A DNA stretch of 37,759 nucleotides from Saprospiraceae bacterium (GTDB lineage Bacteria; Bacteroidota; Bacteroidia; Chitinophagales; Saprospiraceae), in NCBI GenBank assembly GCA_013140975.1, contig JABFRV010000137.1, positions 1-37,759 of the forward strand, in the 5' to 3' direction. The translations under genes and the position numbers were made by a program. This document shows, in pieces, positions 10,977 through 31,864 of this stretch. The notes beneath the pieces are model-generated. The model saw nothing but the letters and a program-made list of their open reading frames with translations, had not been told where the DNA came from and did not search any database. Within the stretch, counting starts at the first letter, position 1. Each line of letters starts with the position of its first letter.

Positions 10977-11405
10977 TTACGTTATTAAGTTGATTTCAAA
11001 TAAACAACAGTTTGGTTCATCCTGATAATGCTTAGGCAAGTTTGCAGTATCTGTCAATTTAAACATTCCTATAAATGTAAATCCTGCCGATGTGTAATGC
11101 TCAATTAATTTCGTATTTTCCCCTAATGTGTCTAAACGAACAAATTTCTTTCCCAATTGCTTTGAATATATTTTTGCCCATTCAACAATTTTTTCGATAT
11201 ACCTATTTCCACGAAAGTTTGGATTCGTACATATACGATGAATATAAATAGAATCGTTTTGGTCTTTATCACCCCAAATTTCTTTGTCTTGAAATGTTAT
11301 AGCCCAATTACAAGCGATTGCATTATCCATACTAATTTTCCATTGTCGCGCTTCATTTATTTCTTTTTCCACAATAGATTTTTCGAAATACGGCCACACA
11401 ACCAT
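10977..11405 (-). CDS. GNAT N-acetyltransferase, N-terminally interrupted
   Basis: GCN5-type acetyltransferase fold in the 142 residues after the only usable ATG. Visible family parts are INEARQWKISMDNAIACNW, WGDKDQNDSIYIHRICTNPN, the acetyl-CoA loop PNFRGNRYIEKIVEWA, KKFVRLDTLGENTKLIEHYT and SAGFTFIGMFKL. The subfamily normally begins about 30 residues earlier, and exactly those residues lie upstream in the same frame behind a TAA at 11412-11414 (see next entry). The product from 11405 would lack the first strand and helix of the fold, so this is probably a pseudogene, or the stop is an assembly error. The substrate is unknown. Confidence 0.8.
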   Translation of the reverse strand: MVVWPYFEKSIVEKEINEARQWKISMDNAIACNWAITFQDKEIWGDKDQNDSIYIHRICTNPNFRGNRYIEKIVEWAKIYSKQLGKKFVRLDTLGENTKLIEHYTSAGFTFIGMFKLTDTANLPKHYQDEPNCCLFEINLIT

Positions 11406-11411
11406 CTTGCT

Positions 11412-11492
11412 TTAAATTTGCAGATTTCTCGCAGCTTCGTAAAGCGATAAAATCTCATTCGCATCAGAAGGTATACAATTTTTGATTTCCAT
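11412..11492 (-). pseudogene. Severed N-terminus of the GNAT gene with in-frame TAA
   Basis: From ATG at 11490-11492 the minus strand reads MEIKNCIPSDANEILSLYEA, then ARNLQI, then TAA (11412-11414). It continues in the same frame as SKMVVWPYFEKS of the downstream open frame. IPSDANEILSLYEAARN is the expected first strand and helix of a GNAT, and the VVWPYF that follows matches the family. The full gene would span 10977-11492 and code for about 170 residues. One substitution would restore it. Confidence 0.75.
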
Positions 11493-11655
11493 ATTTAAGA
11501 ACGCATGATTTAAGTGGTATAAAACTGATTTATTTCAGCCATATAAAAACCTTGAATCTTTCTAATCTTTGGAGCTTACGAATTGGTGAATTAGAGTATC
11601 CGCTCAATTTTTCAAATTCGTCTTACTAAATGCTAGCTGTTCTTAGTATTTATTA

Positions 11656-12276
11656 CTAATTTGAATACGGCATTTTTTTACTAGCATGTCGCATCAAGTT
11701 ATCTACTAATTGGGCTGGAGTACTTCCAACACTTCCGGATACTTTGTGATTATAGTTCCACAGTAATTTCTTCGTTTCTTTATCGTGAATTTCAAGAGTT
11801 ACTGTTGTATTATTTGTTGTTCCCCATACACCAACAAAAACCCCTAAAGCAACTGCAGCGCCTTCTGACATTGGCTTTGTCAAAGAATAATTTGAGGTAA
11901 TTACACCATCAACTCCTAACGCTTCACAGATTTCATTCGGCGACATTGGGTTATCACCAAAATACCCTGCCTTTTTTAACTTGGCATTGGTCGTTTCAAC
12001 ATCTAGGATTTCAACCTGGATTCGGTTTTGCCTTTTTCTTTTTAACAGCCAACTATACATTTCATTCTGAAAATTTGTTGATTCTGTTCTTTGATGCTCC
12101 TTAATGGCTTCTGCATCAACATTTTTACTTGCAGCAATGGAAACTTTTGGTGGTGCAATTGCAATTACTTGATGGCTACTTGCTCTCGCTTTCGCTTCTG
12201 GGCTATAATATATTTTTGCACAACTACCCATAATCAAAGCAATTGTGACGAATAGAACTGTTGAATATTTATTCAT
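11656..12276 (-). CDS. Predicted lipoprotein, possibly CsgG/GNA1162-like fold
   Basis: Envelope lipoprotein of 206 residues. The signal ends in a lipobox (LIMGSCAKIYYSPEAK) with Cys near residue 19. The mature part is a mixed alpha/beta domain: VIAIAPPKVSIAA, NFQNEMYSWLLKRKRQNRIQ, VEILDVETTNAKLKKAGYFG, the region EICEALGVDGVITSNYSLTK, then TVTLEIHDKETKKLLWNYNH and a C-terminal helix. The pattern of a name-like strand, a resistance to degradation region and the ALGVDGVI stretch recalls CsgG/LpoB/GNA1162 periplasmic proteins, but I cannot confirm it. It is a lone gene flanked by spacers; GCTAGC at 11632-11637 follows its stop. Confidence 0.7.
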   Translation of the reverse strand: MNKYSTVLFVTIALIMGSCAKIYYSPEAKARASSHQVIAIAPPKVSIAASKNVDAEAIKEHQRTESTNFQNEMYSWLLKRKRQNRIQVEILDVETTNAKLKKAGYFGDNPMSPNEICEALGVDGVITSNYSLTKPMSEGAAVALGVFVGVWGTTNNTTVTLEIHDKETKKLLWNYNHKVSGSVGSTPAQLVDNLMRHASKKMPYSN

Positions 12277-12495
12277 ATGTTTAATTAAAATTGTTTACGT
12301 TTACTTTGCAGATGATCACCAAAGGATTTGAACACACATGGTTCCGCCGCTCAAAGTTAATGCTTTTTTCTTATTTGTCAAGCGGCCAAGAGTGAATAAT
12401 TTGGTCATGGTCAGAGGGATCTGGTATTCACATTGCTAAATATAATCAATAGTCGGATGTAGAAAAATTCATCAAAGTAGTGTCGTCTTTTACAA

Positions 12496-12807
12496 TTATC
12501 TCAACACTTTTATTAAGCGAACCCCATTCGTATAATATCCATTTGAATGGAGAATCGTCTTATTATCAGAATTTCTATATTCAATAGTATATGCACCATC
12601 AATTCTATTCCTCCACATATTTAAATGACCTGCCTTTTTTGCACCACTTTTAATTGAACCCAGGTTCAATACTTTCACTTTTTCTGACGTGTAAAACTTC
12701 ACATTAAAAATTTCATTCTCACTATCATTCTTTACAGAAAAATAAATACCATTATTACAGGAACTTAATATAAGAACAATTACGAAAAGAATGAATTGAT
12801 TCATCAT
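12496..12807 (-). CDS. Small predicted lipoprotein
   Basis: Protein of 103 residues that I do not recognise. A lipoprotein signal is clear: MNQFILFVIVLILSSCNNG, with the lipidated Cys near residue 17 and Asn after it. The mature 86 residues look like a beta-rich domain (IYFSVKNDSENEIFNVKFYT, VLNLGSIKSGAKKAGHLNM, YTIEYRNSDNKTILHSNGYY). The second ATG at 12804 is an equal start. The spacer upstream and downstream holds no partner gene. Confidence 0.65.
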   Translation of the reverse strand: MMNQFILFVIVLILSSCNNGIYFSVKNDSENEIFNVKFYTSEKVKVLNLGSIKSGAKKAGHLNMWRNRIDGAYTIEYRNSDNKTILHSNGYYTNGVRLIKVLR

Positions 12808-12927
12808 ATTGGCGAATCTGACAATTTTTAACTCTACTCATCCTTCTGAAGCGAAGAATTTTAAGACGATTAAATAATTTGAAAATTTAATTGCATTACG
12901 TACAACGATTCTCGGCCTTATCGCTAG

Positions 12928-13452
12928 TTACTTAGTCTTATTATGGAATCCCGCCTCGTCTTCAACAGTTCTTTTGAATCTGCGAATCACATTCATTGTC
13001 TCCATATGCTTGTAACTTGAATAAAGTTTATAAATGACAATCAAAAAACAAAGAATTTGAAAACCCAGAGAAATGAGCACAGCGTTCAATCCTGAGAAGT
13101 TTTGCGCAATGAGAAGAAAAACGATAACGCATTGAATTGCAATCCAAAGGACAATCGCAAATACAAATAGAATCACCGACAAAAATACCATGTATCCGGT
13201 CCTTTGCATGTCATGTTTAATTGCATTCGTAATTTCAATTTTGAAAAACTTGATGAAAAAAAGAAATGGAGCCTTTATGGCACCTAGCAAATAGTGCCAG
13301 AAGCTTGTATTTTCCTGATGAATAGTTGTACCCCTTTCTTCATCCCTGGAAATCGTTTTATTTTTTTCCTCAATATTTTCAGATGCACCTACTTTAGCCT
13401 TTTCGGCTGCAATAAGAGCTTCCAGCTGTCGAATAATTTCTGTTGTATTCAT
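12928..13452 (-). CDS. Predicted membrane protein, holin-X-like topology
   Basis: Protein of 174 residues. A polar N-terminal half with a coiled-coil-like helix (EIIRQLEALIAAEKAK) and a charged linker is followed by FWHYLLGAIKAPFLFFIKFF, then two strong membrane helices (YMVFLSVILFVFAIVLWIAI and VLISLGFQILCFLIVIYKLY) and a basic tail (VIRRFKRTVEDE). Two helices joined by a short loop after an amphipathic segment recall the putative holin / phage-holin superfamily proteins of chromosomes, usually of unknown role. No phage genes lie nearby, so a phage origin is not supported. Confidence 0.65.
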   Translation of the reverse strand: MNTTEIIRQLEALIAAEKAKVGASENIEEKNKTISRDEERGTTIHQENTSFWHYLLGAIKAPFLFFIKFFKIEITNAIKHDMQRTGYMVFLSVILFVFAIVLWIAIQCVIVFLLIAQNFSGLNAVLISLGFQILCFLIVIYKLYSSYKHMETMNVIRRFKRTVEDEAGFHNKTK

Positions 13453-13548
13453 ATGAGTTTATTTTAATTCACTTGTTTTTGTTTTCTGTTTTTTGGTTTT
13501 TATTCTTGTCCGGACCTACGTGTAAGATGTTTAATCGTCTATTATATT

Positions 13549-13570
13549 CAACATCGAAATGCTGATGTTG
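13549..13570 (-). terminator. Hairpin after the porin gene
   Basis: Arms caacatc (13549-13555) and gatgttg (13564-13570) with an 8-base loop lie 17 bases past the porin stop. There is no strong U run after it, so a terminator role is likely only by position. Confidence 0.35.
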
Positions 13571-13586
13571 GTTGCAATTCTTCTAT

Positions 13587-14651
13587 TTATCTAAGCTTAA
13601 TCGTCAGGTTCGTCGTTATCGAATAATTATCGTTACTTGTATTATTTGAAAATATCTTATCTTTTGAATTATACATTTTTCCCTCTATTCTGCATTTTAG
13701 TCTGTCGTTTACTTCAAAGTCAAAATTCGTAGAAAGCCCAAAGGTCTGAAATCCATTTGCTGTTCCTGAGGCAATTATCAACTCATTTCTGTCAGAATAA
13801 TATTCTGCCCTGAATGCTACTACTGTATTTTTACTTGTTCTTTGTCTGAGAATAATAACAGGAGTATACCAACTATCAAATTTATTGCTCAATATTTTTT
13901 CAGATCCGATGTCAAATCCTGCTATAATTCCAAATCTATCAGATGGTTCATATTGCAAATAAAAATTATGAAAATGTCTAAATGATTCCAAACTGTCCGG
14001 CTTGTCTGAACCTATAAAATTACTGTAATTTAGAGTTAGTCTTGAACTTGGCCTGTAGCTTGCTTGCATTCCAAAAGAAGGCTCCTGGACAAAGTCAGGC
14101 TTGCGAACTCGTTGCCAACCATTTAAAAACAAGGCTGATAAAAGTAATTTTTCGTTTGCAGATGCATAGGAGATCTTAAGTCCTGCCTCATAGTATGGTG
14201 AATTTTCTGCCAGCAAGCTTCTTGTCAATGTCCAGCAGTCAGCACTAATAGCACTTTCAAATCCTATATGAGAAGGCATAATTCCCGCATCTATCCAAAT
14301 ATTCCTTCGTTCAGATAATTTAAGTCCGATATTCGCTTCATAAATAAATTGAGCCCAGGAGGGTTCTGAGATTAAATTGTATTTTGCATAATTACCTGCC
14401 ATCAAACCAAGATTGGCTCTGTATTTTTTATCTACATAGTTGGCTTTTACAATAAGTAAGTTGACATTTAATTCATTATGCCTTTTGTGATTGTAAAGAA
14501 AATTTGATTTTTTATGGTTTGATGGATTAGAAAAGTCATAACTATAATAGATTTCGCCATAAGCTGAATATGTCAGTTTTTTCACACTGTCTGTCTGAGC
14601 AAAAATGTTGCTTATAAGAGATACTGCTAAAATGAATAATCCAAATTTCAC
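13587..14651 (-). CDS. Outer-membrane beta-barrel protein, OmpL-like porin (bbp2 type)
   Basis: Outer-membrane protein of 354 residues with a signal peptide (MKFGLFILAVSLISNIFAQ). Beta-strands alternate throughout: YSAYGEIYYSYDFS, ELNVNLLIVKANYVDKKYRA, NLGLMAGNYAKYN, IWIDAGIMPSHIGFES, YYEAGLKISYASANEKLLL, NGWQRV, GIIAGFDIGSEK, VVAFRAEYYSD, and the last strand YSITTNLTIKLR. The combination of GEIYYSYDF near the start, the SHIGFESAISADCWTLTRSL segment and FLNGWQRV is typical of the putative beta-barrel porin-2 family in Bacteroidota. The last strand lacks the usual terminal Phe. The solute is unknown, and no transporter partner is adjacent. Confidence 0.82.
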   Translation of the reverse strand: MKFGLFILAVSLISNIFAQTDSVKKLTYSAYGEIYYSYDFSNPSNHKKSNFLYNHKRHNELNVNLLIVKANYVDKKYRANLGLMAGNYAKYNLISEPSWAQFIYEANIGLKLSERRNIWIDAGIMPSHIGFESAISADCWTLTRSLLAENSPYYEAGLKISYASANEKLLLSALFLNGWQRVRKPDFVQEPSFGMQASYRPSSRLTLNYSNFIGSDKPDSLESFRHFHNFYLQYEPSDRFGIIAGFDIGSEKILSNKFDSWYTPVIILRQRTSKNTVVAFRAEYYSDRNELIIASGTANGFQTFGLSTNFDFEVNDRLKCRIEGKMYNSKDKIFSNNTSNDNYSITTNLTIKLR

Positions 14652-14755
14652 TTATTACTATTTAAAATATTGAACTCCTTTAAAATTACAAATAACGGAT
14701 TAGTTTATGCCGAACGCAGAGTTTTTCAACCCTTCTTCCACCATACTTGAATTGA

Positions 14756-15400
14756 TTATCTCTTCAAGAGCTTGAAGGCATGAGACCATTGATTATTAGT
14801 AAAACCGATGATACACCAAAGCATACACAAAGGCTCGATGGCTCTTGCAGATTCTACCATTCCGAAATCAGATGCTTCCCAACCAAAAGTGTCAATGATT
14901 ATAGATACTTCCTTTTTAGCATTTTCATTATTTCCGCAAATAAACATAGTCGGCTTACTTTCATAAGAAGGATTAACCATAGATCCGCTTCCTACACTGT
15001 TAAATGCTTTTACAAAATTTGCAGAGGGAACAGTTTCCTGCAATTCTTCCATTAATGATCTATCAAGAGTCGTGAAGAATTTCAATACGCCATTCGTGGG
15101 CGGAGCATCAGAAATAGGATTTGAAGCGTCTATTACCGTTTTGTTGCTAATGTTATCATGCCCCATTAAATTAAGTGCATTTTTAGCTACAGATCCTTTT
15201 ACTGCGAGAACAATAATTTCACCAAAACTTGCGGCATCAGCAAATGAACCGACAAGTGCATTTGCACCTGGGCCATTTTGCCATTCAGCTAGCTTTGACG
15301 CATCCCTTGTGCCAAGCATTACCTGATAACCATGTTTTAAAAATCCAGCTCCCAATGTCTGGGCAACTATTCCCGATCCGATAATTCCGATTTTTTTCAT
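14756..15400 (-). CDS. NADP-binding oxidoreductase, F420-type (NADPH-dependent)
   Basis: Cytoplasmic protein of 214 residues with an N-terminal Rossmann fold of the F420-oxidoreductase family: KKIGIIGSGIVAQTLGAGFL, GTRDASKLAEWQ (the basic residue suggests NADP), ASFGEIIVLAVKG, KTVIDASNPIS, then VPSANFVKAFNSVGSG and TMFICGNNENAKKEV. Members reduce F420 or unknown small substrates; Bacteroidota lack F420, so another acceptor is likely. The C-terminus (ESARAIEPLCMLWCIIGF) is normal for the family. It is monocistronic, with 104 bases to the next gene downstream. Confidence 0.88.
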   Translation of the reverse strand: MKKIGIIGSGIVAQTLGAGFLKHGYQVMLGTRDASKLAEWQNGPGANALVGSFADAASFGEIIVLAVKGSVAKNALNLMGHDNISNKTVIDASNPISDAPPTNGVLKFFTTLDRSLMEELQETVPSANFVKAFNSVGSGSMVNPSYESKPTMFICGNNENAKKEVSIIIDTFGWEASDFGMVESARAIEPLCMLWCIIGFTNNQWSHAFKLLKR

Positions 15401-15445
15401 ACTATTTCTTTTTAATTCGTTACAAATAATTATTTAAAATGCCTT

Positions 15446-15850
15446 TTATGCCCTGTTGTGGGTTTGTCGTTTTTCTTTTTTAAGAATGATCCAAAGTAAA
15501 ATTGACGAAGCCAAAGTTAGTACACTAAAGAATTTTTCAAAATTGCTGATGGCGAAAAGATTACCAATAGTATTTAATGCAAATAAAGCTAAAAAAATCC
15601 ATAAAATTATATCCACTACTCTATTAGGAATAATCTTACTTATATATCCCCCTTTTATCATTAGAATTAAAAATAGAATAAGGTTGATAATGAATGAAAT
15701 ACTTTCAAAAATATACATTTCAGAAACCCTTTTTAATCTTCCTCCCCAGGTAATCTCATAAGGGATGATTCTCAATAGTATGCTCAAATGAAATAGCATT
15801 ACAATGGCGAGTAACCAGAGCATGATCTTTATTGCGGTTATTTTATTCAT
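15446..15850 (-). CDS. Predicted four-helix membrane protein, unknown
   Basis: Protein of 134 residues that I do not recognise. Four hydrophobic helices are clear: IKIMLWLLAIVMLFHLSILL (8-27), FESISFIINLILFLILMIKG (48-67), VVDIILWIFLALFALNTIG (78-97) and FFSVLTLASSILLWIILKK (107-126). A WGGRLK loop follows helix one, and the tail is basic (KKEKRQTHNRA). Its stop is 46 bases before the NADP-binding gene start, so the two might be cotranscribed. Confidence 0.65.
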   Translation of the reverse strand: MNKITAIKIMLWLLAIVMLFHLSILLRIIPYEITWGGRLKRVSEMYIFESISFIINLILFLILMIKGGYISKIIPNRVVDIILWIFLALFALNTIGNLFAISNFEKFFSVLTLASSILLWIILKKEKRQTHNRA

Positions 15851-15989
15851 TTATTTTATAGAATTCAGATATAAAACAAAAGTTTAGGGTTTTTTGTTTG
15901 GGAGGTCTATTAACACAGGTCAAAATCATAATGCTCCAATCTGATCTTGCGATTTAATGAATCTAACTATCATTGAAGCAACATCAATG

Positions 15990-16499
15990 TTACTTTAGTT
16001 TTATAAACGTCTCTTTTAAGCCAAGTTTTTGCAAATGCTTTAAAAGCTTTTCAGCATCTTTTCCGCCCTTCTCCGCGTGGTGCAATAATGTAAATCCATG
16101 TGGACCCTGCGAGTTCAAAAGACCTGGATATGCTTTCAGTAAAGCTTTTACAATATCTGTTTTTCCAAGCATTGTCAATACAAAAATGTCCGTTCTTGCA
16201 CCGAGTGAAATGAGAAAGTTTGCCATATCTTTCAGACCCATATGGCCTGCTGCGCCAAGCGCTGTTTCAAAATCACCGCCTCCCCAATCCCATGAAGCAT
16301 TTAAAAGCAATGGCTGCTCTTTTAGCATTTCTTTTACTTTGTCGAAATCTGAATGAGCAACTTTTACAAACTCCTTTACAATTTTCGGATCAATTTGTGC
16401 CGGCTTTTCCGTGTTCTGTGAAAAAACCAAGCTTGGAACTACACTAATTCCTGCTGAAAAAAGAAGTCCCTTTTTTAAAAAGTCCTTTCTTGAAGTCAT
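15990..16499 (-). CDS. Ankyrin-repeat protein with Tat-like signal
   Basis: Exported protein of 169 residues. The N-terminus SRKDFLKKGLLFSAGISVVP resembles a Bacteroidota Tat signal but has Arg-Lys instead of Arg-Arg, followed by a cleavage region (SLVFSQ). Residues about 45-160 form ankyrin repeats: FDKVKEMLKEQPLLLNAS, WDWGGGDFETALGAAGHMG, DMANFLISLGARTDIFVLTM, KTDIVKALLKAYPGLLNS and GFTLLHHAEKGGKDAEKLLK. It should bind a protein partner in the periplasm. The ASWDWGGGDFETALGAA segment is a feature of this subfamily as I recall it. It is a lone gene. Confidence 0.8.
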   Translation of the reverse strand: MTSRKDFLKKGLLFSAGISVVPSLVFSQNTEKPAQIDPKIVKEFVKVAHSDFDKVKEMLKEQPLLLNASWDWGGGDFETALGAAGHMGLKDMANFLISLGARTDIFVLTMLGKTDIVKALLKAYPGLLNSQGPHGFTLLHHAEKGGKDAEKLLKHLQKLGLKETFIKLK

Positions 16500-16643
16500 C
16501 TGTTTATTTTATTTAAAATACAAGTTGTTTATTTTGTTGGAATTACTTGATATAATGAACGATCACATGTATTAAAAATTGTCAACAGATGCTAGGTATG
16601 GAACAGACAAAATGTAATTGCTGGATTTTATTGCCTTTACTTA

Positions 16644-17923: not shown

Positions 17924-18043
17924 TTAAGGTTTCAATTTCCAAATTTTGTCTGAAAAATTTATGTATTCAGGAAGTGCTGCCGATCCATACCATGTAAATA
18001 CCTCATAGTCTAATATTCCGTTTCTTATGGCAAGGTCGGTTTT
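17924..18043 (-). pseudogene. Severed C-terminus of the DUF6265-YCII gene
   Basis: After the TAA at 18044-18046 the same minus-strand frame continues KTDLAIRNGILDYEVFTWYG, SAALPEYINFSDKIWKLKP and then stops (17924-17926). DYEVFTWYGSAALPEYI is the usual last strand of YCII-domain proteins of this subfamily, so the upstream gene lost it through one in-frame stop. Confidence 0.85.
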
Positions 18044-18787
18044 TTATAATTCCTTCGCTTCCTCAACTGATTTTAAATTGTTCAATATAAAAATTCCTCT
18101 ATAACTGTTTTCATTTTTACTTAGAGGTCCGGCTACGATTAGCTTACCTTCTTTAACCAAGCGGTTAATATTGTCCATATGCCCCCTAAAGCTTGAATTT
18201 ATTAAATCTTTATCGGTGGTATTGTTTGATCCTGTTTTAAGAATCACTAAAAAGTAACTCTTCATACCATAATCATCCCCTCCTAATTTGTTGGCTAATG
18301 ATTTGTTATAGTTTGGATTTACAATCTTGGAATCCTTTTGCTCTATATCATGAAACTGTTTTTGCATCTTATATGCAAACCCTTTTTGTTTTCCGTCTGA
18401 AACTTGTACAAATATTTCTGCGTCATTCAATTTTTGATACACAATTTTTTTAGGAAAATAATGCTTAGGGTTTTCAAAAATAAAAGTGCTATCAGTTTTC
18501 GTTAACTTAAAGCTTACTCCCTTTCCGCTATTCTGCTTAAGGACAGTTGCTGTATATATTACTTCATTCTTGGCTATTGTGATATCCAGGTATTCAGAAA
18601 TGAGCATTTGTGCGTCTTTCAATGTATAAGAAAATCCTTTCAATGCACTTTCATTGAGCTTATCCCAATGCTCATAAACTTCCTGGTTCTCCATTTTCCA
18701 CGTCCCTTGTAAAAATTCCGGATAACGTGTTTGCGCAAAAGCTAATTCCAGAATAAATAAAATCGATACAGTCAAAATATATTTCAT
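18044..18787 (-). CDS. DUF6265 plus YCII-domain secreted protein, C-terminally truncated
   Basis: Exported protein of 247 residues with signal peptide MKYILTVSILFILELAFAQ. Residues about 22-135 match DUF6265 (FLQGTWKMENQEVYEHWDK, ESALKGFSYTLKDAQML, a lipocalin-like barrel). Residues about 160-247 are a YCII domain (SYFLVILKTGSNNTTDKDLI, FRGHMDNINRLVKEGKLIVA, GPLSKNENSYRGIFILNNLK). The YCII His in FRGHM is present. The frame ends SVEEAKEL then TAA, in the middle of the domain; 39 family-typical residues follow in frame. The gene is therefore a recent pseudogene, or makes a shortened product. Fusion of the two domains is seen in Bacteroidota; function is unknown. Confidence 0.85.
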   Translation of the reverse strand: MKYILTVSILFILELAFAQTRYPEFLQGTWKMENQEVYEHWDKLNESALKGFSYTLKDAQMLISEYLDITIAKNEVIYTATVLKQNSGKGVSFKLTKTDSTFIFENPKHYFPKKIVYQKLNDAEIFVQVSDGKQKGFAYKMQKQFHDIEQKDSKIVNPNYNKSLANKLGGDDYGMKSYFLVILKTGSNNTTDKDLINSSFRGHMDNINRLVKEGKLIVAGPLSKNENSYRGIFILNNLKSVEEAKEL

Positions 18788-20423: not shown

Positions 20424-20431
20424 ACTGCCTG

Positions 20432-20529: not shown

Positions 20530-20664
20530 TCAGTTCTTAATAGTTAATGATTCTAAGAATAGCTCAATTATTTCTTTATCTTCCTTAAAATGATCGTTTA
20601 ACAACATTGTCACAATGATTATGCCCTCATCTTTTTCACCGTAAGTAGCAACCGTATATACTTG
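20530..20664 (-). pseudogene. Severed C-terminus of the secreted protein at 20665
   Basis: After TAA at 20665-20667 the same frame continues QVYTVATYGEKDEGIIIVTM, LLNDHFKEDKEIIELFLESL, TIKN and stops in TGA (20530-20532). A beta-strand pair followed by an amphipathic helix ending the protein is what the truncated gene lacks. One base change would join the two into 205 residues. Confidence 0.8.
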
Positions 20665-21147
20665 TTATTCGTCTTTATATGTTAAGGTGGCCTGAATACC
20701 TTCAATTACTTGACCACTTTTTAGTTTTTTCTTGAACTCCTTCTCAGATTTCGAATAACCATAATTCATACTTTCTTTTGTAATCTCCTTCAACATTAAT
20801 TCTGTCAAGCTACTTGGGTTCATAGTCTTATTTTTTTGAATCAAAAAACCAGTCCCAGTAGATTTTAAAATCACACATTGTTCAATCCCCTTTTCAATTT
20901 TTGTGTTTGAAACACTTAGCGACTTTTCATAGCTAAAAGAAATCAAATCATCTGAATAGGTTAAAACATCAGGCTGTATAATACTCATTTTCAACTCTTC
21001 ACCTGAACTCGTCTTGTAGTTAAACTCCATATTAAGGTTAACTTGAATGGAATCATTATTTATTACTAAAATAAAATTTCCTTGATTTTGGGCAAAAATT
21101 AATGAGTTAACAAACATTAGTATTGCGGTCAAAATTGATTTTATCAT
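20665..21147 (-). CDS. Small secreted protein, truncated by in-frame TAA
   Basis: Exported protein of 160 residues as it stands, with signal peptide MIKSILTAILMFVNSLIFAQ. The mature part looks like a single alpha/beta domain (FILVINNDSIQVNLNMEFNY, LKMSIIQPDVLTYSDDLISF, IEKGIEQCVILKSTGTGFLI, SLTELMLKEITKESMNYGYS, VIEGIQATLTYKDE). The stop falls inside an antiparallel beta pattern and 44 more plausible residues follow in frame, giving a protein that recalls PsbP/DUF1795-like folds (inference). Treat as a likely pseudogene. It is a lone gene. Confidence 0.7.
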   Translation of the reverse strand: MIKSILTAILMFVNSLIFAQNQGNFILVINNDSIQVNLNMEFNYKTSSGEELKMSIIQPDVLTYSDDLISFSYEKSLSVSNTKIEKGIEQCVILKSTGTGFLIQKNKTMNPSSLTELMLKEITKESMNYGYSKSEKEFKKKLKSGQVIEGIQATLTYKDE

Positions 21148-21302: not shown

Positions 21303-22103
21303 TTATTCTTTCACCACTTTAATTGCCTTTATTAATTGCTCATTTTTGTCTGCAAGTAAAAGGAAGTACATACTTGATGCCTGGCTTGAAATGTCAATAG
21401 TATTTGTGTTTAGCTTTTTAGTGATTACTCTACCATTCAAGTCAGTTAAACTAACATTATAATCTATTGAAAGAAATATTATACCTGGCGTTGGGTTAGG
21501 ATATGCTCTTACATCTGATTTACTATCAACAATCACCTTCTCAATGTTCAACAATTCAACATCCAGTTTAAATAGTTGTCGATCGCCTTCTGTTTTTATT
21601 GCAGAAAAATAGATATTTGATGTTTGCGGATCTTTTGTAAAGTCCTGCATATAACTTGACGAAAAACCTGTTCTTATGTCTTCCAACAATGTGAGCTCTC
21701 CGTTATTCGTATTAAAAAGGTAAGGCTCTCGTCCATGTTCACCATCGTTAATACTTAATAAATGATAATTATCTTTCAATTTTTGTACAAAATTACCTAT
21801 GGAACTATTTATCTGGGATTGCATTTCGTTCATTACCTCAAACTCATCTGTAGGATATGTATATTTTTCGAATATTAATTTGCTCATTACATCTTTATAA
21901 ATAAGAACACTGAACTCATCTTCTTCCATCACTCCAATAAGTTGTTCAACTCTTCCACTTGGTGTAATTTTTTTTGGTTCTACATCAAACGAAAAGATAT
22001 AAGTATCATATAAAGATGCATTTCTAACTTCTACAAATGATATCCTATCAGATTTGTACCAGAAGAAGTTTTGGTAATACAAAAGGCCATTATCAAGAAT
22101 CAA
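21303..22103 (-). CDS. T9SS-sorted ELW-repeat-like protein, 5' end degraded
   Basis: Open frame of 266 residues with no ATG; TTG at 22103 is the first possible start and leaves no signal peptide. Residues about 115-180 resemble ELWxxDGT-type repeats (LLSINDGEHGREPYLFNT, TLLEDIRTGFSSSYMQDF). The C-terminal 75 residues are a clear Por-secretion sorting domain (SDVRAYPNPTPGIIFLSIDY, VSLTDLNGRVITKK, ASSMYFLLLADKNEQLIKAI). A protein with this C-terminus needs an export signal, and one can be seen in pieces upstream (next entry), so the gene is probably dead or misassembled. The function of the intact form is unknown. Confidence 0.7.
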   Translation of the reverse strand: MILDNGLLYYQNFFWYKSDRISFVEVRNASLYDTYIFSFDVEPKKITPSGRVEQLIGVMEEDEFSVLIYKDVMSKLIFEKYTYPTDEFEVMNEMQSQINSSIGNFVQKLKDNYHLLSINDGEHGREPYLFNTNNGELTLLEDIRTGFSSSYMQDFTKDPQTSNIYFSAIKTEGDRQLFKLDVELLNIEKVIVDSKSDVRAYPNPTPGIIFLSIDYNVSLTDLNGRVITKKLNTNTIDISSQASSMYFLLLADKNEQLIKAIKVVKE

Positions 22104-22179
22104 TTTTTTCTTTAGGCATTTTTTTTTGCTACAAGCTTACTACGAACAAAGAAGGGAATAAAGAAGTGAATTTATTTAT
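22104..22179 (-). pseudogene. Broken export signal of the T9SS gene at 21303
   Basis: Directly upstream the minus strand gives ACSKKKCLKKK in the frame of the gene, closed by TAA at 22137-22139. In the next frame it gives ATA-NKFTSLFPSLFVVSL from 22179. Joined, these make a lipoprotein-style signal (NKFTSLFPSLFVVSL / ACSKKK), so the start seems to have mutated from ATG to ATA and one indel separates the frames. Confidence 0.5.
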
Positions 22180-22451
22180 GGGGTTGAATAGCGATTGGCC
22201 ATCTTTAACCACAACTGTTAGTTAATTGCACTCACTTTCATATTGTGATCAATACCCAAAAATATTAATTTCTTTTAATTTTACTGGTATACCTACGTGT
22301 TTTTTACCAACTATTCAATATGGAATTATCTCGACAATCTTCGGGATTGAGTTTATTACAGTCAGTCCCACTATTGCCAATAAAATGCTAGCGGATGTCT
22401 TTCTGTCCACTGTATGTCGCGATGTTTACTTATAATCGTTGTCGCTTTTTA
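22180..22451. other. Spacer with CTAGCGG motif
   Basis: No supportable gene; short open frames on both strands match nothing known. GCTAGCGG is at 22387-22394, followed by CGCGATG and ATAATCGTTGTCGC, similar to other spacers in this window. Confidence 0.3.
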
Positions 22452-23414
22452 TTATTTAAATGTCTTCGGAACACTTGGGTCTGCGACAATAATGTAGTCC
22501 CCAAGATGTTTATGTTTGCTCCAATCAATATTTGGAAATGAATCATCTGTTAATGCTGAAATGATGAGTGATTTCGTTTCCGGACGATACTTCTTTAGCT
22601 GTGTTGCAATGGCAAATCCTTCGTCACTATGAAATCGTCCATTAACCTGCATCACTTTTTTCTGCCTATTTTCTTTCAAATACTCTGAAATAGAATATGC
22701 CATAGTTGCATCCCAAAGAGATTGACCTAATATTAAATTAAATCCCCCCATAGGCATAATTGCAGGCATTTTTTTTACAGATGTATCAGAAACCGAAGAT
22801 GCATCGTGCGAAGTGAGCGCCATAAGTTTTTCATAATATCTTCCTGAAGCAGTATCATAAGGCAATGGAGCAAAATATTTTTTTGATTCATCAGATAATT
22901 CCATTAATGCGTTTTGTCCTTTCCTGCCTGCAAGATTAGTGTATCGGGTAGGTGCATTGGCACAAATTATATTCAAATTGTTGCTCTTTGCAAATTCAAC
23001 CATAGATTTATAATCTTTATAGTTACTCCAAATACGCGCATCTTTAGTAAAATGTTTGTCCCGAATATATCCTTTAAGATATTCATTCATTACTGGCTGC
23101 ACATCTCTGTCAAACATTTCCATTGAAAGTGCAATGTCGTTGGAAAATTTCTGGTACATTATTTCAAACATTTTGTTTTCAAGATAATGTGCTACAGAGT
23201 CATTATGCTCTTCACCAAAGAAAAGAACATCATAATTCTTCATATCCTCAGAAATGTCGTTAAGGCTTACTTCTTTGTCTGTTTTTACTGAGTATATTTT
23301 ATAGTTCTTTTCTGTAACCTGTCCAACCGATTGAAAGCAGATAATTAAAAAAGGACAGATTAAAAAAATTCTGATAAAATTGACTATGCTTGATTTAATG
23401 AGTTGAAATGTCAT
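22452..23414 (-). CDS. ChaN-family (haem-binding uptake / Tiki-like) protein
   Basis: Exported protein of 320 residues with an N-terminal hydrophobic signal (IRIFLICPFLIICFQSVGQ). The ChaN domain fills residues about 40-310: DVLFFGEEHNDSVAHYLENK with the GExH active/ligand motif, ALSMEMFDRDVQPVMNEYLK, RIWSNYKDYKSMVEFAKSNN, IICANAPTRYTNLAGRKG, and the second motif VMQVNGRFHSDEGFAIATQL. The family was linked to haem binding in Campylobacter and is related in fold to EreA/TIKI proteins, so a metal-dependent hydrolase is also possible. Short insertion with SHDASSVSDT near 203. A lone gene of usual length. Confidence 0.9.
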   Translation of the reverse strand: MTFQLIKSSIVNFIRIFLICPFLIICFQSVGQVTEKNYKIYSVKTDKEVSLNDISEDMKNYDVLFFGEEHNDSVAHYLENKMFEIMYQKFSNDIALSMEMFDRDVQPVMNEYLKGYIRDKHFTKDARIWSNYKDYKSMVEFAKSNNLNIICANAPTRYTNLAGRKGQNALMELSDESKKYFAPLPYDTASGRYYEKLMALTSHDASSVSDTSVKKMPAIMPMGGFNLILGQSLWDATMAYSISEYLKENRQKKVMQVNGRFHSDEGFAIATQLKKYRPETKSLIISALTDDSFPNIDWSKHKHLGDYIIVADPSVPKTFK

Positions 23415-25341: not shown

Positions 25342-26387
25342 AAGGTTTTCATTAATGTGCAATAACAGGGTTTTGGCAAATAATTGTCATCATACAATAA
25401 GGGATAATCCTCTCTATTGTAAAAACTTCGGATCCAACTATTTTTGTCACTGATACCCCAAAATGTTATTCCATGTTGATATTGTTTGGGAATCTGATTA
25501 TAATTTAAAACAAGGCTTCCAAGCAAATTTGCCTGTTTATTAAAAAGTGTTTCGCTCGGATCAATATCTTTACCAAGTGGATTTACTGAAATATCTAATT
25601 CTGATACGTGCACCTTGTAATTATCAGCAACAATTTTGTGGAAAGCATTCGCGATTTGTATAGGATCCGGATAATATATATTAATGTGCATTTGAACACC
25701 AATTCCGTCTACTTTCACGCCTCTATTCCTAAGATTATTTAGTAAGGACAAAACACTGTTTAACTTGTTTGGGTTGGATTCAAGATTGAAATCATTATAA
25801 AACAATAAAACGTTTGGGTCTGCTTCTCTTGCAAATAAAAAAGCTTTTTCAATATAAGCTGTTCCGATTTTTTGTTTCCAAATGGTATTTCTTAATGTTC
25901 CATCTTCATTAAAAGCTTCATTCACCACATCCCAGGCGCTTACCTTATCTTTAAAATGCGCTATGATTGTATGAATATGGTCCTTCATCAACTGCTCCCA
26001 ATCAGAAGGACTTCCTTGAAAATCTAAAATCCACTGCGGTAACTGTTGATGCCATATCAAGGTGTGTCCGTGTAATCGTTTGTTGTTATTCTGACAAAAA
26101 GAGGCCAAGCTATCTGCTTCAGTCCAATTATAAATTAATGGTTGAGGATGTATAGATTCAGCCTTGAAAATATTCTCAGGTGTAATACTATTGAACTGAA
26201 CAAGAGCCTTAGATTTATATAAAGAGTCAGTTACTAATTTATTAAAGTCAATTGCAGTTCCAATTGGATAACTCGAAAAATTATATAATCCTATTCTATC
26301 ATTACAGGTATTAATTTCTTCTCTTTGACACCCTGGAATAATAGACAATAGAAGTAAGAACTTTATTGTATTTTTTATATTTAGCAT
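25338..26387 (-). CDS. GH10 endo-1,4-beta-xylanase lipoprotein
   Basis: Glycoside hydrolase family 10 of 349 residues, cutting beta-1,4-xylan. A lipoprotein signal (FLLLLSIIPGC, Cys 20) places it on the envelope. The (beta/alpha)8 barrel shows ITPENIFKAESIHP, GHTLIWHQQLPQW, the acid/base Glu in WDVVNEAFNEDG (about 157), VDGIGVQMHI, the nucleophile Glu in HVSELDISV (about 263) and ITFWGISDKNSWI. All catalytic parts are present and the length is normal without extra binding modules. It overlaps the following barrel gene by four bases. No SusC/SusD or other xylan genes lie nearby, so it is not in a typical polysaccharide locus. Confidence 0.95.
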   Translation of the reverse strand: MLNIKNTIKFLLLLSIIPGCQREEINTCNDRIGLYNFSSYPIGTAIDFNKLVTDSLYKSKALVQFNSITPENIFKAESIHPQPLIYNWTEADSLASFCQNNNKRLHGHTLIWHQQLPQWILDFQGSPSDWEQLMKDHIHTIIAHFKDKVSAWDVVNEAFNEDGTLRNTIWKQKIGTAYIEKAFLFAREADPNVLLFYNDFNLESNPNKLNSVLSLLNNLRNRGVKVDGIGVQMHINIYYPDPIQIANAFHKIVADNYKVHVSELDISVNPLGKDIDPSETLFNKQANLLGSLVLNYNQIPKQYQHGITFWGISDKNSWIRSFYNREDYPLLYDDNYLPKPCYCTLMKTL

Positions 26388-26537
26388 TGGTTGTAACGGA
26401 TTACAGTTACAAGAAGTTGAAAATTTCGAATATAAAAAAGTCTGCCACCACTAAATTTTATTTTAAGCCAAATGTTCAATAAACTCGTAAACAGCCAATT
26501 TCTTAAACTCGTATTCAGAAGTAACTCTTTTGTACTT

Positions 26538-26794
26538 CTATAACTTAAATTTTTCACACGTATTTCCATTGAATTAAATGCTCCGTTTTTTTGTGTGCCA
26601 AGCCATAACTCACCATTATTGTCCTTGTAAATATAAAGCACAGTAATGTCTTTGCCATCATATTTTACAGAGCAATGCATAATCTATTTACCGTGATTTC
26701 GCCAGAACCCTTTGTTGTATGTTGCCATCCGAAAGTCATCATTATCTATTTCCATAGAAATAACGGTTACTAATTCTCTGTCTTTAGCTCCATC
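26538..26794 (-). pseudogene. Remnant of a two-component-propeller protein
   Basis: The minus strand, starting right after the stop of the T9SS hydrolase and in its frame, reads DGAKDRELVTVISMEIDNDD, FRMATYNKGFWRNHGK, then TAG (26684-26686). It continues IMHCSVKYDGKDITVLYIYK and DNNGELWLGTQKNGAF, a standard propeller blade. Near 26575 one base is missing (TTTAATTC for TTTAAATTC), after which the next frame gives FNGNTCEKFKL and TAG at 26538. It carries no start of its own. It is a decayed fragment related to the sensor domain at 737-3799. Confidence 0.72.
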
Positions 26795-27967
26795 TTATCT
26801 ACCAATTCCTTTTTTTATTATTTTTTTCATTATTATTTGTTCTCTATATTTGAATTTGACGAGCAATAATCCATTTGGCGTGCCCGATAAATCTATTTTT
26901 TGATTTAAAACCAAAGACTCTTTTAATATTCGGCCATCGGTTGTACATATTTCGTATTCAAGTCCGTTCATTGAAGTGTTGTCAATCCATACTACATCGT
27001 CTGCGGGATTTGGATAAAGATTAAATATGATTTTCTTATCAAGTTTCTTTTCAACAAGTCCGGTGCTGATGCTAAACTGCCTAAGCCAATGCTCTATAAT
27101 ATTGAATACATACTCACTATTTAAATCTTGCATAAGAATATGGCTATTTCCAAAAACTAAAGAATCTTCCGGAAGTGAAACCACATCTGCTACACCGCCC
27201 GCTTTCTGAAAAAGAACTGCGGCTGCTTCAGTTGCTAGCTTTCTGCTTGTTTGATTTCTAGAAGTTATATAATCCCCATACATGCCCAACATATGTAATC
27301 CATTTAAATCTGGAAAGTCTCCTGTATCAGGCGGGCCTGCAGGTTCTATCAATATTAAACCTTTAACTTGATCTTTCTTTTGTCGGGCTGCAGTTACAGC
27401 TCTGCTTGATCCGGCACTATGAGCAAGAAGCCATACATCGCTTTTTGTTGAATCAATAACAGCTTGTATAGCATCTGTGTAACTCTCGTTGGATGTACCT
27501 AAATACGGATAATTTCTTGCAAATAATTCAAAAGAATCTGTAGGGAAAAGTGCATTAGGATAGGGGTTCCCTTGTGAAGATCCAAATCCCCACCGGCTCC
27601 ATATGTCATTTTGCCACCCTTGTTGTGAACCAGGTGTTGCTTTTTTTCCATCGGCTGGAACCGTATATGGCTTTACAAATCCACCCGTTGCAAAATCATA
27701 CCTTGGATCATTTACCATATATACATCGTACCCTTTGTCTGCAAATAAATCAGCCCAACCTTTTCTACCATCAGGAGTCGTGACATATAAATAGGTTGAT
27801 AAGTTTGCACCGGGTACCATAACTATTACTTCATTTTTTATTCGGTTTTTTGACAGGATATAGTTAATGAAAGCATCATGGGTGTAAAAACTTCCATAGG
27901 TATGTTGTGACACGCCATTACCAGCAAAAAGCAAGCTTATAATTAGAAAAATAATTCGCTCAATCAT
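26795..27967 (-). CDS. Secreted alpha/beta hydrolase with T9SS sorting domain
   Basis: Esterase-like protein of 390 residues. A signal peptide (MIERIIFLIISLLFAGNGVS) precedes an alpha/beta-hydrolase domain with VIVMVPGANLSTYLYVT (oxyanion region), GWADLFADKGYDVYMVNDPR, and nucleophile elbow DVWLLAHSAGSSRA (Ser about 184). Asp and His candidates lie near GMYGD and GNSHILM. The C-terminal 80 residues form a Por-secretion sorting domain (FNLYPNPADDVVWIDNT, IDLSGTPNGLLLVKFKYR, IIMKKIIKK). The last residues GIGR run into the sequence of a dead propeller gene, so the original stop was probably just after KKIIKK. The ester substrate is unknown. Confidence 0.88.
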   Translation of the reverse strand: MIERIIFLIISLLFAGNGVSQHTYGSFYTHDAFINYILSKNRIKNEVIVMVPGANLSTYLYVTTPDGRKGWADLFADKGYDVYMVNDPRYDFATGGFVKPYTVPADGKKATPGSQQGWQNDIWSRWGFGSSQGNPYPNALFPTDSFELFARNYPYLGTSNESYTDAIQAVIDSTKSDVWLLAHSAGSSRAVTAARQKKDQVKGLILIEPAGPPDTGDFPDLNGLHMLGMYGDYITSRNQTSRKLATEAAAVLFQKAGGVADVVSLPEDSLVFGNSHILMQDLNSEYVFNIIEHWLRQFSISTGLVEKKLDKKIIFNLYPNPADDVVWIDNTSMNGLEYEICTTDGRILKESLVLNQKIDLSGTPNGLLLVKFKYREQIIMKKIIKKGIGR

Positions 27968-28074
27968 AAATTTTTATTTTTAATAAATAGGTATAGAAGG
28001 TAATATAATTTTTTTGCAAATTAGAATGCTCATGATTTTTTGGATTGGGTTTTTATTGATCTCATGTAAGTAGT

Positions 28075-28096
28075 ATTGTCAACTACAATTGACAAT
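28075..28096 (-). terminator. Hairpin after the DUF1501 gene
   Basis: Arms attgtcaa (28075-28082) and ttgacaat (28089-28096) pair perfectly around a 6-base loop, 35 bases past the DUF1501 stop and 107 bases before the hydrolase start. No U run follows, so it may be an operator of the hydrolase instead. Confidence 0.35.
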
Positions 28097-28131
28097 GAAC
28101 ATCATACACATTGTTACAATCAGTCTTCTTA

Positions 28132-29709
28132 TTATAATTTGACAAACTTTTTCGTTTTAAAGATCACTCGATTGCTTATGTGAATAAAGTATGAACCTGT
28201 GGGGTAATTTGAGATATCCAAATTGATATTTTGATTTCGGGATGAATTACTTTCAAACTTAAAAGAATCAATAACTCCTCCCTTTCCATCAAAAACGCTA
28301 ATCTTTGTTTGCCCCTCGACTCCGGAAAGATTTATTCTTAAAATATGGTCAGCCGGATTGGGAGACAATTTTATTTGAAATTCATTCGCTTGATCTAATT
28401 CATCTAAAGCAGTTGTTATTATGCAACCTGACTTAAACAATGGCAATATTTGAACATTAGGATGAATGACATCATTGACTTCGTTCGACTTCAAGCCAAG
28501 CCAATCTTTTAGTATGGTTCCATAAATATCTCTAAAATCATATTGCATCTGCACACCTTCATCAATTCCAACTTGAGTGTCAATTTCAGGATGATTACCT
28601 AATATTTGATTTTTTATACAAGAGCCAAATAAAAACAATGGTGCAGCTGTACCATGATCAGTTCCTAATGCCGCATTTGAACGAATCCTTCTACCGAATT
28701 CTGAATAGGTCATTCCTACAACTCTGTCATTTACTTTTAATAAATTAAGGTCATCTTGAAATGCACAGATTGCATCTGAAAGTTCTTTCAGTAAATCATT
28801 ATGAATACCAGTCGCAGTAGCGCCACCAATAACCTGATTGTCATGAGTATCAAAGCCACCAATTTGTACGACATAAATTTTTGTTTGTAATCCCCCGGAA
28901 ATTAAACGGGCAACATTTTTTAATTTTTTGGAAAGCTCTGTTGTTAGATTACTCCACTTTGGAGATAAATTATTACCTTTATTTGCAGCAGCACTAATGA
29001 CAGATGCAAATGCGTTCGTCTGTGAAACTGTTTCATTTACAAATGACAAAGCATCACCAAAACAATTTTTGGGAATATTACCTTCTGCGCTAACCAATGC
29101 AGTACCAGGATTAAAGGGATCTAATAATGACAAACTATAATTGGCATTAATTCCCTGGCATGTTTCGGATACAATTTTACCCATTGTCAATGCGAATGGA
29201 TGAGGACAATCAGAATTTGGATAACCATTAGGATAGTCAGAATGATTCAAGTCATAGAATCTTCCAATCCAACCAGTACTATCAAACTCTTCTGCACTTG
29301 AAGCCGAATTCCAAATATCAGTTGATCTAAAGTGTGAACGATTTTGATTTGGATAACCTACGTTTTGCACGATTCCTAAATTACCCATTTGCCAAACATC
29401 TTTCATTCCTTGCATTGCAGAATGAAAACCATAATCATTGTGGAAATTTAAAATGGCACTTTCGGGTAAAATGATGTTTCCCCGAACAGCTTGCAAATTA
29501 TCATATTGTCCTGCATGAAAAATCGTAGATAATCCATCATTGCCACCTTGCAATTGAACCAACACTAATATCTTATCATTGTCACCACCAGTAAATGCAG
29601 TATTGATTCTACTGATTCCAAATAATGGAAACCCACTTAATGTAAGTGGAATAGACGCAAATACAGAGTTTCTGATAAAATCTCTTCTTTTCATCGTAGT
29701 CTTTTTCAT
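28132..29709 (-). CDS. DUF1501 family protein with Tat-like signal and T9SS domain
   Basis: Secreted protein of 525 residues. The N-terminus MKRRDFIRNSVFASIPLTLS is a Tat-type signal (second ATG, 29694, is the likelier start). DUF1501 covers residues about 40-430: ILVLVQLQGGNDGLSTIFHA, YGFHSAMQGMKDVWQMGNLG, NRSHFRSTDIWNSA, VVQIGGFDTHDNQ, VVGMTYSEFGRRIRSNAALG and TDHGTAAPLFLFG. These are alkaline-phosphatase/sulfatase-like metal-site motifs. A Por-secretion sorting domain ends it (IKLSPNPADHILRINLSG, NYPTGSYFIHISNRV). It follows DUF1800 by two bases. The pair is conserved across many phyla and has no proven function; the Tat signal suggests a metal-loaded protein folded before export. Confidence 0.93.
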   Translation of the reverse strand: MKKTTMKRRDFIRNSVFASIPLTLSGFPLFGISRINTAFTGGDNDKILVLVQLQGGNDGLSTIFHAGQYDNLQAVRGNIILPESAILNFHNDYGFHSAMQGMKDVWQMGNLGIVQNVGYPNQNRSHFRSTDIWNSASSAEEFDSTGWIGRFYDLNHSDYPNGYPNSDCPHPFALTMGKIVSETCQGINANYSLSLLDPFNPGTALVSAEGNIPKNCFGDALSFVNETVSQTNAFASVISAAANKGNNLSPKWSNLTTELSKKLKNVARLISGGLQTKIYVVQIGGFDTHDNQVIGGATATGIHNDLLKELSDAICAFQDDLNLLKVNDRVVGMTYSEFGRRIRSNAALGTDHGTAAPLFLFGSCIKNQILGNHPEIDTQVGIDEGVQMQYDFRDIYGTILKDWLGLKSNEVNDVIHPNVQILPLFKSGCIITTALDELDQANEFQIKLSPNPADHILRINLSGVEGQTKISVFDGKGGVIDSFKFESNSSRNQNINLDISNYPTGSYFIHISNRVIFKTKKFVKL

Positions 29710-29711
29710 AT

Positions 29712-31337
29712 TTACATTATTTGAAATTCTGACATTCTTACCATAACTGAAAATAAGCTTCTTAATTTTTTTTCAACGGAATCCGCAAGAGCCTTATTGG
29801 ACGAATCGGCAAGGTATTCCAAGTATTCAATCGTCCACTCAAAATCAGGCAAGCCAGGGATAAGTACATCTTTTAAACCGGTCAATTGGTTGGCAGTTAT
29901 AGGATAATTGAACATTAATTCTGCTAATGAATTTATAAGAATATTTGGGTCATTAGCATCCGTAATTCTTTTCACAATATCTAATACCGGAACCAACGTG
30001 GTAACAGTGTAATTTACGTCATTGTAGCTGAATCTTCCACCCTCTACCATGAGTCTGCAAAATTCATGACGCTTAGGAAGAAGTAAATTATTGATCCATA
30101 ATTTATCAAACTGTGGCTCTTGATAATATGCTTTCCAACCTGCTACATTTGGATGAAAAAAAAGTGCTTGCTCTAAATCAGCACTCATAATATAATGATG
30201 ATAAGCATGGTCGTATTCATCTTCTACTTCTCCTTTTGGCGGAGTTATTCCTAAACCCCTTGAGACGGACATCATTAAATCAATCGGACTCTTTATCATA
30301 CAAGCTGTTGATTCATAAAAGTGTTCCGATTTTAATAAAACTTTTAAAGCAGGCGCTATTTCGTAATCATTGTTTCTCAAAATAGTTGCAAGGGGTTCAA
30401 TAACATTCTTTTCTATCTCCGCTGTAATGTCATAATGAACAAACCAGCGATATAATTTTCTCATAATGAAGCGAGAACATTCACTTTGTTTGAAAATTAC
30501 ATCTATTAAATCTCTGTATTCCTGTTTACCGTTTTCTGAAATTACAGAATTATTAAAGCGCGAAGACAATTGCTTGTTACCCAATGTATGTCTATTTGCA
30601 GTAAACTGTCCGATCAACGCATTGGCATTGGAAATAGGAGGAACTTGCCAACCTGTAAGTACTTTTGCCATTGCCACGACGTCTGCCTCTGTATAATTGG
30701 TATAATCTCCCGGTCCTGCTAATTTCCCTTTTCCAATTGTGAATAATTCTAAAAGTTCTCTTGAATAATTTTCATTTGGTGCAACGTTTGTATTTTCAGC
30801 TCCGCTTAAATACAACAGCATACCGGAATCTATAGTTATTTCTTTTGTAAGCTCTTTAAAATTGCCAGTAGAAAAACTTCGTAATCGGTTATAATATAAA
30901 AATTCCCTGTGAGGAATTGTAACATCTCCAATTACAAAATGATTATGCCAAAACAAAGCCAATTTCTCTCTGATTGAGATTTCAGTGTAATGCATTTGTA
31001 ATACAGTCCAAGAATAAAGTGATTTGCTTCTGGAACGAAGTATCCGATTACGGTACATGGGAGGGTTAACATTCGGAAAAGGGGCTGCATTTACCCAAGT
31101 TGTGCCATACACCGCACTCGGATCATCGAGTTGATTGCTTCCTGTTCCGTCTGGAATGGATTTTAATGGAGGAGAAGGCATGGGCAATGGGGCAAATAGT
31201 TGATCAATGGTACCTTTAATTCCTAAATTGATGGCAGTATTTACCATTTGTATAGAAGGCCCAAAGGTGGTTCGCCTCAATAAATGTCTGGCTTGAGATG
31301 AGGTCCACTTTCCAGAATATTCATCTAAGTATGGCAT
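29712..31337 (-). CDS. DUF1800 family protein
   Basis: Protein of 541 residues, first gene of the DUF1800-DUF1501 operon. Family motifs are WTSSQARHLLRRTTFGPS at the start, KLALFWHNHFVIGDVTIPHR, YYNRLRSFSTGNFKELTKEI, MLLYLSGAENTNVAPNENYS (with the substituent NENYSRELLELFTIG), TEADVVAMAKVLTGWQVPP, and SRFIMRKLYRWFVHYDI. The C-terminal helical half (AYHHYIMSADLEQALFFHPN, NVAGWKAYYQEP) is complete. There is no signal peptide, which is usual for this family's N-terminus in Bacteroidota. It is always found beside DUF1501; function unknown. Confidence 0.93.
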   Translation of the reverse strand: MPYLDEYSGKWTSSQARHLLRRTTFGPSIQMVNTAINLGIKGTIDQLFAPLPMPSPPLKSIPDGTGSNQLDDPSAVYGTTWVNAAPFPNVNPPMYRNRILRSRSKSLYSWTVLQMHYTEISIREKLALFWHNHFVIGDVTIPHREFLYYNRLRSFSTGNFKELTKEITIDSGMLLYLSGAENTNVAPNENYSRELLELFTIGKGKLAGPGDYTNYTEADVVAMAKVLTGWQVPPISNANALIGQFTANRHTLGNKQLSSRFNNSVISENGKQEYRDLIDVIFKQSECSRFIMRKLYRWFVHYDITAEIEKNVIEPLATILRNNDYEIAPALKVLLKSEHFYESTACMIKSPIDLMMSVSRGLGITPPKGEVEDEYDHAYHHYIMSADLEQALFFHPNVAGWKAYYQEPQFDKLWINNLLLPKRHEFCRLMVEGGRFSYNDVNYTVTTLVPVLDIVKRITDANDPNILINSLAELMFNYPITANQLTGLKDVLIPGLPDFEWTIEYLEYLADSSNKALADSVEKKLRSLFSVMVRMSEFQIM

Positions 31338-31387
31338 AATAATATATTATTCTTTAAGGTCAGTTAAATCGTTTTTTTTAAACAAAT

Positions 31388-31421
31388 CAAAGCTATTACT
31401 AAAAGTCACAGATCGAGCAAA
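31388..31421 (-). promoter_or_regulatory. Promoter of the DUF1800-DUF1501 operon
   Basis: The minus strand reads TTTG (31418-31421), 22 bases, TAGCTTTG (31388-31395), the latter an exact TAnnTTTG box 51 bases upstream of the ATG. A second exact box, TACATTTG, overlaps the -33 element (31418-31425), so two tandem promoters are possible. Confidence 0.5.
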
Positions 31422-31425
31422 TGTA

Positions 31426-31678
31426 CTATTCACATTTTAGGTTTTTTTATGATTTATAAATAAAATTATGGCAAACCTGCTGTCTTAGAAACGGGGGGAT
31501 CTTATAATTAGAATAACGGCTTACTGCCATTGGCCAACAATATATTATTTCACGACATTTATTTCGCAGATCCAAACTTCAAATGTATCAATTTCTATTA
31601 AAAAGACTGATAACTTGTTCCGACTTGGCGTGAAATCCTTTGCATGCTTGCAGGAGCTGTTAGTGTAGTTTTTTATTG
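31426..31678. other. Spacer between the broken small membrane gene and DUF1800
   Basis: No gene or clear hairpin seen; together with the promoter and leader to 31337 this is a 340-base gap. Confidence 0.3.
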
Positions 31679-31864
31679 TTACGTTCGTTTTTTATAGTCT
31701 TTAAAAATCAAGTATATAGATATTATAAATGCAATTCCATAAATTGTATCTAATACTGGTTCTTTAAATGTAAAATTGTTAAAGTCAATATTCTTATACA
31801 ATGTCAAACCAAATATAAATGCAAACTATACAAATATTATGTTTATTCCTTTTTTACTTTCCAT
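31679..31864 (-). pseudogene. Small membrane protein gene with in-frame TAG
   Basis: From ATG at 31862-31864 the minus strand reads MESKKGINIIFV, TAG (31826-31828), then in the same frame FAFIFGLTLYKNIDFNNFTF, KEPVLDTIYGIAFIISIYLI and FKDYKKRT, ending in TAA. Without the TAG it is a 61-residue protein with two membrane helices (INIIFV-FAFIFGLTLY and IYGIAFIISIYLIF) and a basic tail, a common Bacteroidota hypothetical-protein pattern. A short upstream frame ending at 31895 (VYSQFAIQAVINTDDIANKL) may be a remnant of a partner. It is too short to appear as a normal gene. Confidence 0.7.

Follow-up and report, generated by a model that had tools for sequence, protein, structure and literature searches.

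Bacterial pseudogenes that arise by nonsense mutation or truncation have been described (Pseudofinder, PMC9336565). Like the locus analysed here, they show in-frame stops, frame changes and truncation when set against intact homologs, and the genes affected are dispensable; the sole difference that we saw is the local grouping of five such genes in about 21 kb. Assembly error is documented as an origin of false pseudogenes (PMC11017572). These artefactual pseudogenes, like our locus, show internal stops that stand alone in a draft assembly, whereas the locus also holds two truncated remnants and one fusion, and the other 499 kb sampled yielded no confirmed internal stop. In stop-codon reassignment or suppression, in-frame TAA or TAG is likewise followed by conserved sequence; here, however, no matching tRNA was found, and the same stops end most of the sampled genes.

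The window, meaning the whole stretch of DNA that was analysed, is one complete contig of 37,759 bases from a 3.97 Mb draft genome in 196 contigs. Its positions 10977-31864, apparently an accessory part of a Bacteroidota chromosome, quite probably record the ordinary loss of dispensable genes, with three nonsense truncations and two C-terminal remnants. Three small genes (one GNAT-type, one YCII-like and already fused to DUF6265, and one family-less) would each have acquired an in-frame TAA, and two other genes would have been reduced to C-terminal remnants via deletion, one of them also by a frame change. Weak selection on these genes would let the inactivating mutations persist. Gene decay of this kind looks already known, with no new reading of stop codons. 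Five gene calls on the contig merit marks as pseudogenes or remnants, and the locus has little import beyond annotation.

Gene Content of the Stretch

The window is AT-rich, with 32-37% G+C in 17 of its 18 two-kilobase blocks and 41% in the last. ATG-started ORFs of at least about 90 aa lie on the minus strand in 36 of 38 cases across the window, and in 22 of 22 within the stretch at 10977-31864. The coding density of this 21-kb stretch is 0.773, which is low yet not extreme: four of 29 other stretches of the same genome are lower. The lowest density among the 29 was 0.577 (L106, G000:C130:1-20000; ATG-started ORFs of at least about 90 aa). Gene labels (GNAT, T9SS sorting domain, YCII) were taken from matches to Pfam and NCBIfam profiles. 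No Pfam match to a transposase or integrase exceeded the cut-off among 30 window ORFs and pieces, a subset of the ORFs. Scans of the window with Rfam and ARAGORN gave zero matches and zero tRNAs, respectively.

Among ORFs of at least about 120 aa, a homolog was present in two relatives (1.77 Mb) for 4 of 20 in the stretch, compared with 166 of the 325 outside it (Fisher p = 0.0097). The flanks of the window are also poor in shared ORFs (2/8 and 1/6), and four other stretches of the genome lie at 0.17-0.20 shared, so the genome has quite a few regions of this gene-poor sharing. With the same references, broken homologous clusters numbered one of five in the stretch and none of 199 elsewhere (499 kb, after inspection; Fisher p = 0.025). 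The genes compared here are conserved ones, a single broken cluster makes the difference, and the fused ORF described below supplies two of the five clusters. References fetched for matching the window were left out of this count of broken clusters and entered the site-by-site tests only. Other accessory regions of the genome may hold breaks just as densely as this stretch.

Three Genes Interrupted by In-Frame TAA Codons

The first gene encodes a GNAT-type acetyltransferase.

10977-11411, minus strand: part of the GNAT-type acetyltransferase beyond the in-frame stop (PF00583, 25.9 bits, over cut-off)
11412-11414, minus strand: in-frame TAA within the GNAT gene, where 11 of 11 fetched homologs read on
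11415-11492, minus strand: N-terminal piece of the GNAT gene, starting with ATG, 26 codons, matching homolog N-termini

A family search with the ORF at 10977-11411 matched 32 of 150 genomes, its own genome counted, and the ORF is 45-64% identical to 11 fetched homologs. In all 11 fetched foreign loci, one continuous frame spans the position of the TAA, and the alignments cross it with 26-27 columns ahead of the stop and 139-143 behind. When the piece at 11415-11492 was the sole query, five homolog N-termini were matched in a set of six homolog frames (E 1e-9 to 0.04). An ATG lies only two codons past the TAA, so a shortened GNAT protein may still be produced.

The second gene lies in an ORF that joins two families.

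18044-18787, minus strand: fused DUF6265 and YCII-like ORF ending at TAA 18044-18046 (PF19780, 30.9 bits, over cut-off)
17927-18043, minus strand: YCII-like tail beyond the TAA, 39 codons, matching the C-termini of genus homologs

Genus homologs of the YCII-like gene aligned across the TAA in 4 of 4 cases, and the 39-codon tail showed 39-59% identity to the C-termini of all four. In six of six further homologs of the family, the frame runs 40-42 residues past the point of the TAA, as judged by length only with the tails unaligned. The YCII name follows from two homologs, one scoring 28.1 bits against a cut-off of 24 and the other 18.6 bits, short of it, together with a match between the window ORF and the YciI-like profile that stays below threshold (19.9 bits).

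The fused ORF matched 87 of 150 genomes (own counted). Among the matches listed, no foreign one covered most of both halves; the widest spanned residues 12-180 and 123-262 of 262. In the genus relatives that have both halves (G002, G004 and G008), DUF6265 and the YCII-like gene lie on different contigs, and the YCII-like half of the fused ORF is without the N-terminal leader present in its homologs. The fusion therefore appears unusual and was not seen in the sampled relatives; the join, near 18.3 kb, might mark a deletion or else a gene fusion of recent date. By this comparison, the YCII-like gene seems to bear a second lesion besides the TAA.

The third gene belongs to no named family, and Pfam gave nothing over the cut-off on its ORF at 20665-21147.

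20665-21147, minus strand: 160-aa start of the family-less protein, ending at TAA 20665-20667, matched by the frames of two relatives
20533-20664, minus strand: 44-codon tail past the TAA, matching the C-termini of the two relatives

Only two foreign genomes among 150 matched the ORF, with 33-36% identity to frames of 226 and 228 aa. The tail is 33-39% identical to the C-termini of both (E 4e-4 and 2.8e-7, small set).

In each gene the frame is interrupted where homologs are continuous, as in described pseudogenes: in 11/11 homologs at 11412, in 10/10 at 18044 (4 by alignment across the stop, 6 from the length of the frame) and in 2/2 at 20665. The sequence-only reading had proposed breaks at these three places and a comparison with the closest relatives as a check. 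The fetched homologs continue there and do not end, which bears out all three, the third on the thin evidence of two homologs. Since even the best-matching homologs of the GNAT, YCII-like and family-less genes are just 64%, 66% and 38% identical, respectively, inactivation of these genes is a step beyond what was observed; we infer that the stops arose by genuine mutation, inactivate the genes and are kept under weak selection.

Two C-Terminal Remnants and an Open Piece

Two further loci have lost most of a gene, and a third holds a short open piece after a TAG.

21303-22136, minus strand: C-terminal remnant of a large secreted protein, T9SS-sorted and ELWxxDGT-like, with about 70% lost (Por_Secre_tail, 37 bits)
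26541-26794, minus strand: C-terminal remnant of a two-component-regulator propeller protein (Reg_prop, 20.5 bits, cut-off 20.4)
31682-31828, minus strand: open piece of 48 codons after TAG 31826-31828, status unproven (one relative)

The ORF at 21303-22136 corresponds to the C-terminal 277 aa of a protein whose best relatives span about 960-1030 aa; the four foreign frames that match it best have 959-1028 aa and come from three genomes. The ELWxxDGT profile scored 25.2 bits, below the cut-off. A search with this ORF matched 100 of 150 genomes, most through the shared sorting domain alone. Queries without about the first 200 residues of the relatives' proteins gave only chance-level matches to the missing upstream part in 22000-22460.

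Within the propeller remnant lie TAG 26684-26686 and, near 26575, a change of frame. In tblastn, five relatives (frames of 348-378 aa within the loci) aligned through the TAG at 41-46% identity, and one continued in a second frame. Intact propeller proteins have about 350-390 aa, and roughly the last quarter of the gene remains. A second propeller match in the same genome is an open 372-aa frame on contig C160. A weak Mu-transposase row from Pfam on the remnant was below the cut-off. The remnant adjoins a T9SS hydrolase gene at 26795-27967. The last codons of the hydrolase (26795-26815) fall inside the relatives' alignment with the remnant, and the present end of the hydrolase may derive from the propeller gene.

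Both loci are older remnants, neither single-base breaks nor fresh. The gene damage proposed at 22139 is real, though misdescribed, and at 26684 with 26575 the TAG and the frame change are present; a single-base break fits neither a 5'-truncated remnant whose four best relatives reach 959-1028 aa nor a gene of which about the last quarter is left.

The 48-aa piece after TAG 31826 had one match at E 3.8e-7 with 39% identity, and weak others up to E 0.1. The good match (L058 ~450-930, G061) has its upstream continuation in another frame, as judged by eye. By the same inspection, this relative looks as if it were itself broken.

Pattern of the Breaks

At least six same-strand genes, broken freshly by single bases and never by TGA, had been read from the sequence alone. 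Three stop-interrupted genes stand, two of the sites are the older remnants and do not fit single-base damage, and the break at 31826 is unproven. The shared strand is true but trivial, since all 22 longer ORFs of the stretch lie on the minus strand. The absence of TGA fails as a signal: single-base nonsense changes in the stretch's 22 ORFs are expected to give TAA in 46%, TAG in 27% and TGA in 27%, and with this TGA share, zero TGA among four or five stops has p = 0.28 or 0.20.

Freshness holds best at 18044 and 20665, and not at 22139 or 26684. Per homolog, identity before versus after the stop was 48-62% versus 39-59% for the YCII-like gene and 31-39% versus 39-50% for the family-less one. 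This like identity on both sides makes the two stops look young relative to the divergence from the relatives. At 11412, the short N-terminal piece is less similar to the homologs than the part past the stop (27-58% versus 44-63%). At least two of the three nonsense truncations thus look recent by sequence comparison.

Of 346 ORFs from other parts of the genome, 10.4% had at least 39 open codons after the stop, against 2 of 22 in the stretch. Open extensions are common in these controls, so the case for a break rests on homology alone and not on the open frame. Reference-free detection of breaks by dicodon usage was tried and rejected: the signal (0.16 nats per codon in frame versus -0.22 off frame) is too weak for tails of 39-44 codons. 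Same-strand, no-TGA and open-frame-past-stop patterns come easily in an AT-rich, one-strand run of genes and call for caution.

Stop Codon Usage and tRNA Genes

Sampled long ORFs (301) end in TAA in 218 cases, TAG in 46 and TGA in 37. None of 35 tRNA genes identified by the Rfam model and ARAGORN reads TAA or TAG; 150 of 336 first-look candidates were scored, and a very odd tRNA among the unscored ones could have been missed. Global recoding had been judged unlikely, and this assessment holds, as TAA and TAG end most sampled ORFs and all 35 tRNA genes have sense anticodons. The same anticodons leave partial suppression of TAA and TAG, which had been listed as a candidate, unsupported. Given the tRNA genes found and the way the stops are used, recoding or suppression of these codons was rejected. 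Codons for Q, R and W are those that a C-to-T or G-to-A change turns into stops. In none of 19 homolog rows, which represent 17 places because two occur twice, does one of these residues stand opposite the stop, and the C-to-T damage that had also been suggested is accordingly not indicated.

Origin of the Breaks

Relaxed selection on an accessory region, one of the origins offered beforehand, fits best: few genes are shared with the two relatives (4/20 versus 166/325), and the remnants are truncated or carry several lesions, beyond what single-base sequencing error would make. The chief competitor is an error of consensus or assembly in the draft that created at least one of the three TAA codons, the gene being intact in the organism. 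Each of the three breaks is a lone codon beyond which the sequence is conserved, the window is an entire contig of a 196-contig assembly, and assembly error is a source of many internal stops in public genomes (PMC11017572). Against this, zero true internal stops were seen in 199 homologous clusters from 499 kb of the same assembly, two neighbouring loci are truncated or multi-lesion, and the YCII-like gene is also fused. We regard an error as unlikely. It is far less probable still that the breaks are a reading artefact, that is, open extensions past normal gene ends in an AT-rich genome. The control frequency of such extensions given above is in keeping with this, and 31826 may belong among them; homology, however, crosses the stop at three of the sites and reaches partial remnants at two others, and it refutes an artefact at 11412, 18044 and 20665.

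Equally hard to credit is partial readthrough of TAA and TAG that yields C-terminally extended forms. The distal parts are about as conserved as the proximal ones at 18044 and 20665, a pattern that recent decay would match too. No anticodon among the 35 tRNA genes reads TAA or TAG, these two codons close 218 and 46 of the 301 sampled long ORFs, the fetched relatives have a sense codon and no conserved stop at the three TAA sites, and readthrough could not rescue the two remnant loci. A mixed reading, with the three TAA codons as recent, tolerated truncations, the distal parts made at a low level by readthrough and the genes in mid-transition from full-length to shortened forms, appears exceedingly improbable.

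Candidates Elsewhere in the Genome

Inspection of the clusters outside the stretch led us to reject the flags on two contigs. At L103, one 133-aa reference hit three minus-strand places inside long plus-strand ORFs. At L118, a single ORF of a reference genome has its counterpart in two intact genes that are separate. A reverse scan of the relatives G002 and G008 covered 305 clusters and gave one flagged row (L151, E 6e-7, 32% identity). The ORF behind the L118 flag (G002, L213:17161-17916) has 251 aa and unites what in the genome of the window are two open genes, apart from each other, at L118:18420-19198; these two look like YbeY and an Ogt-type methyltransferase.
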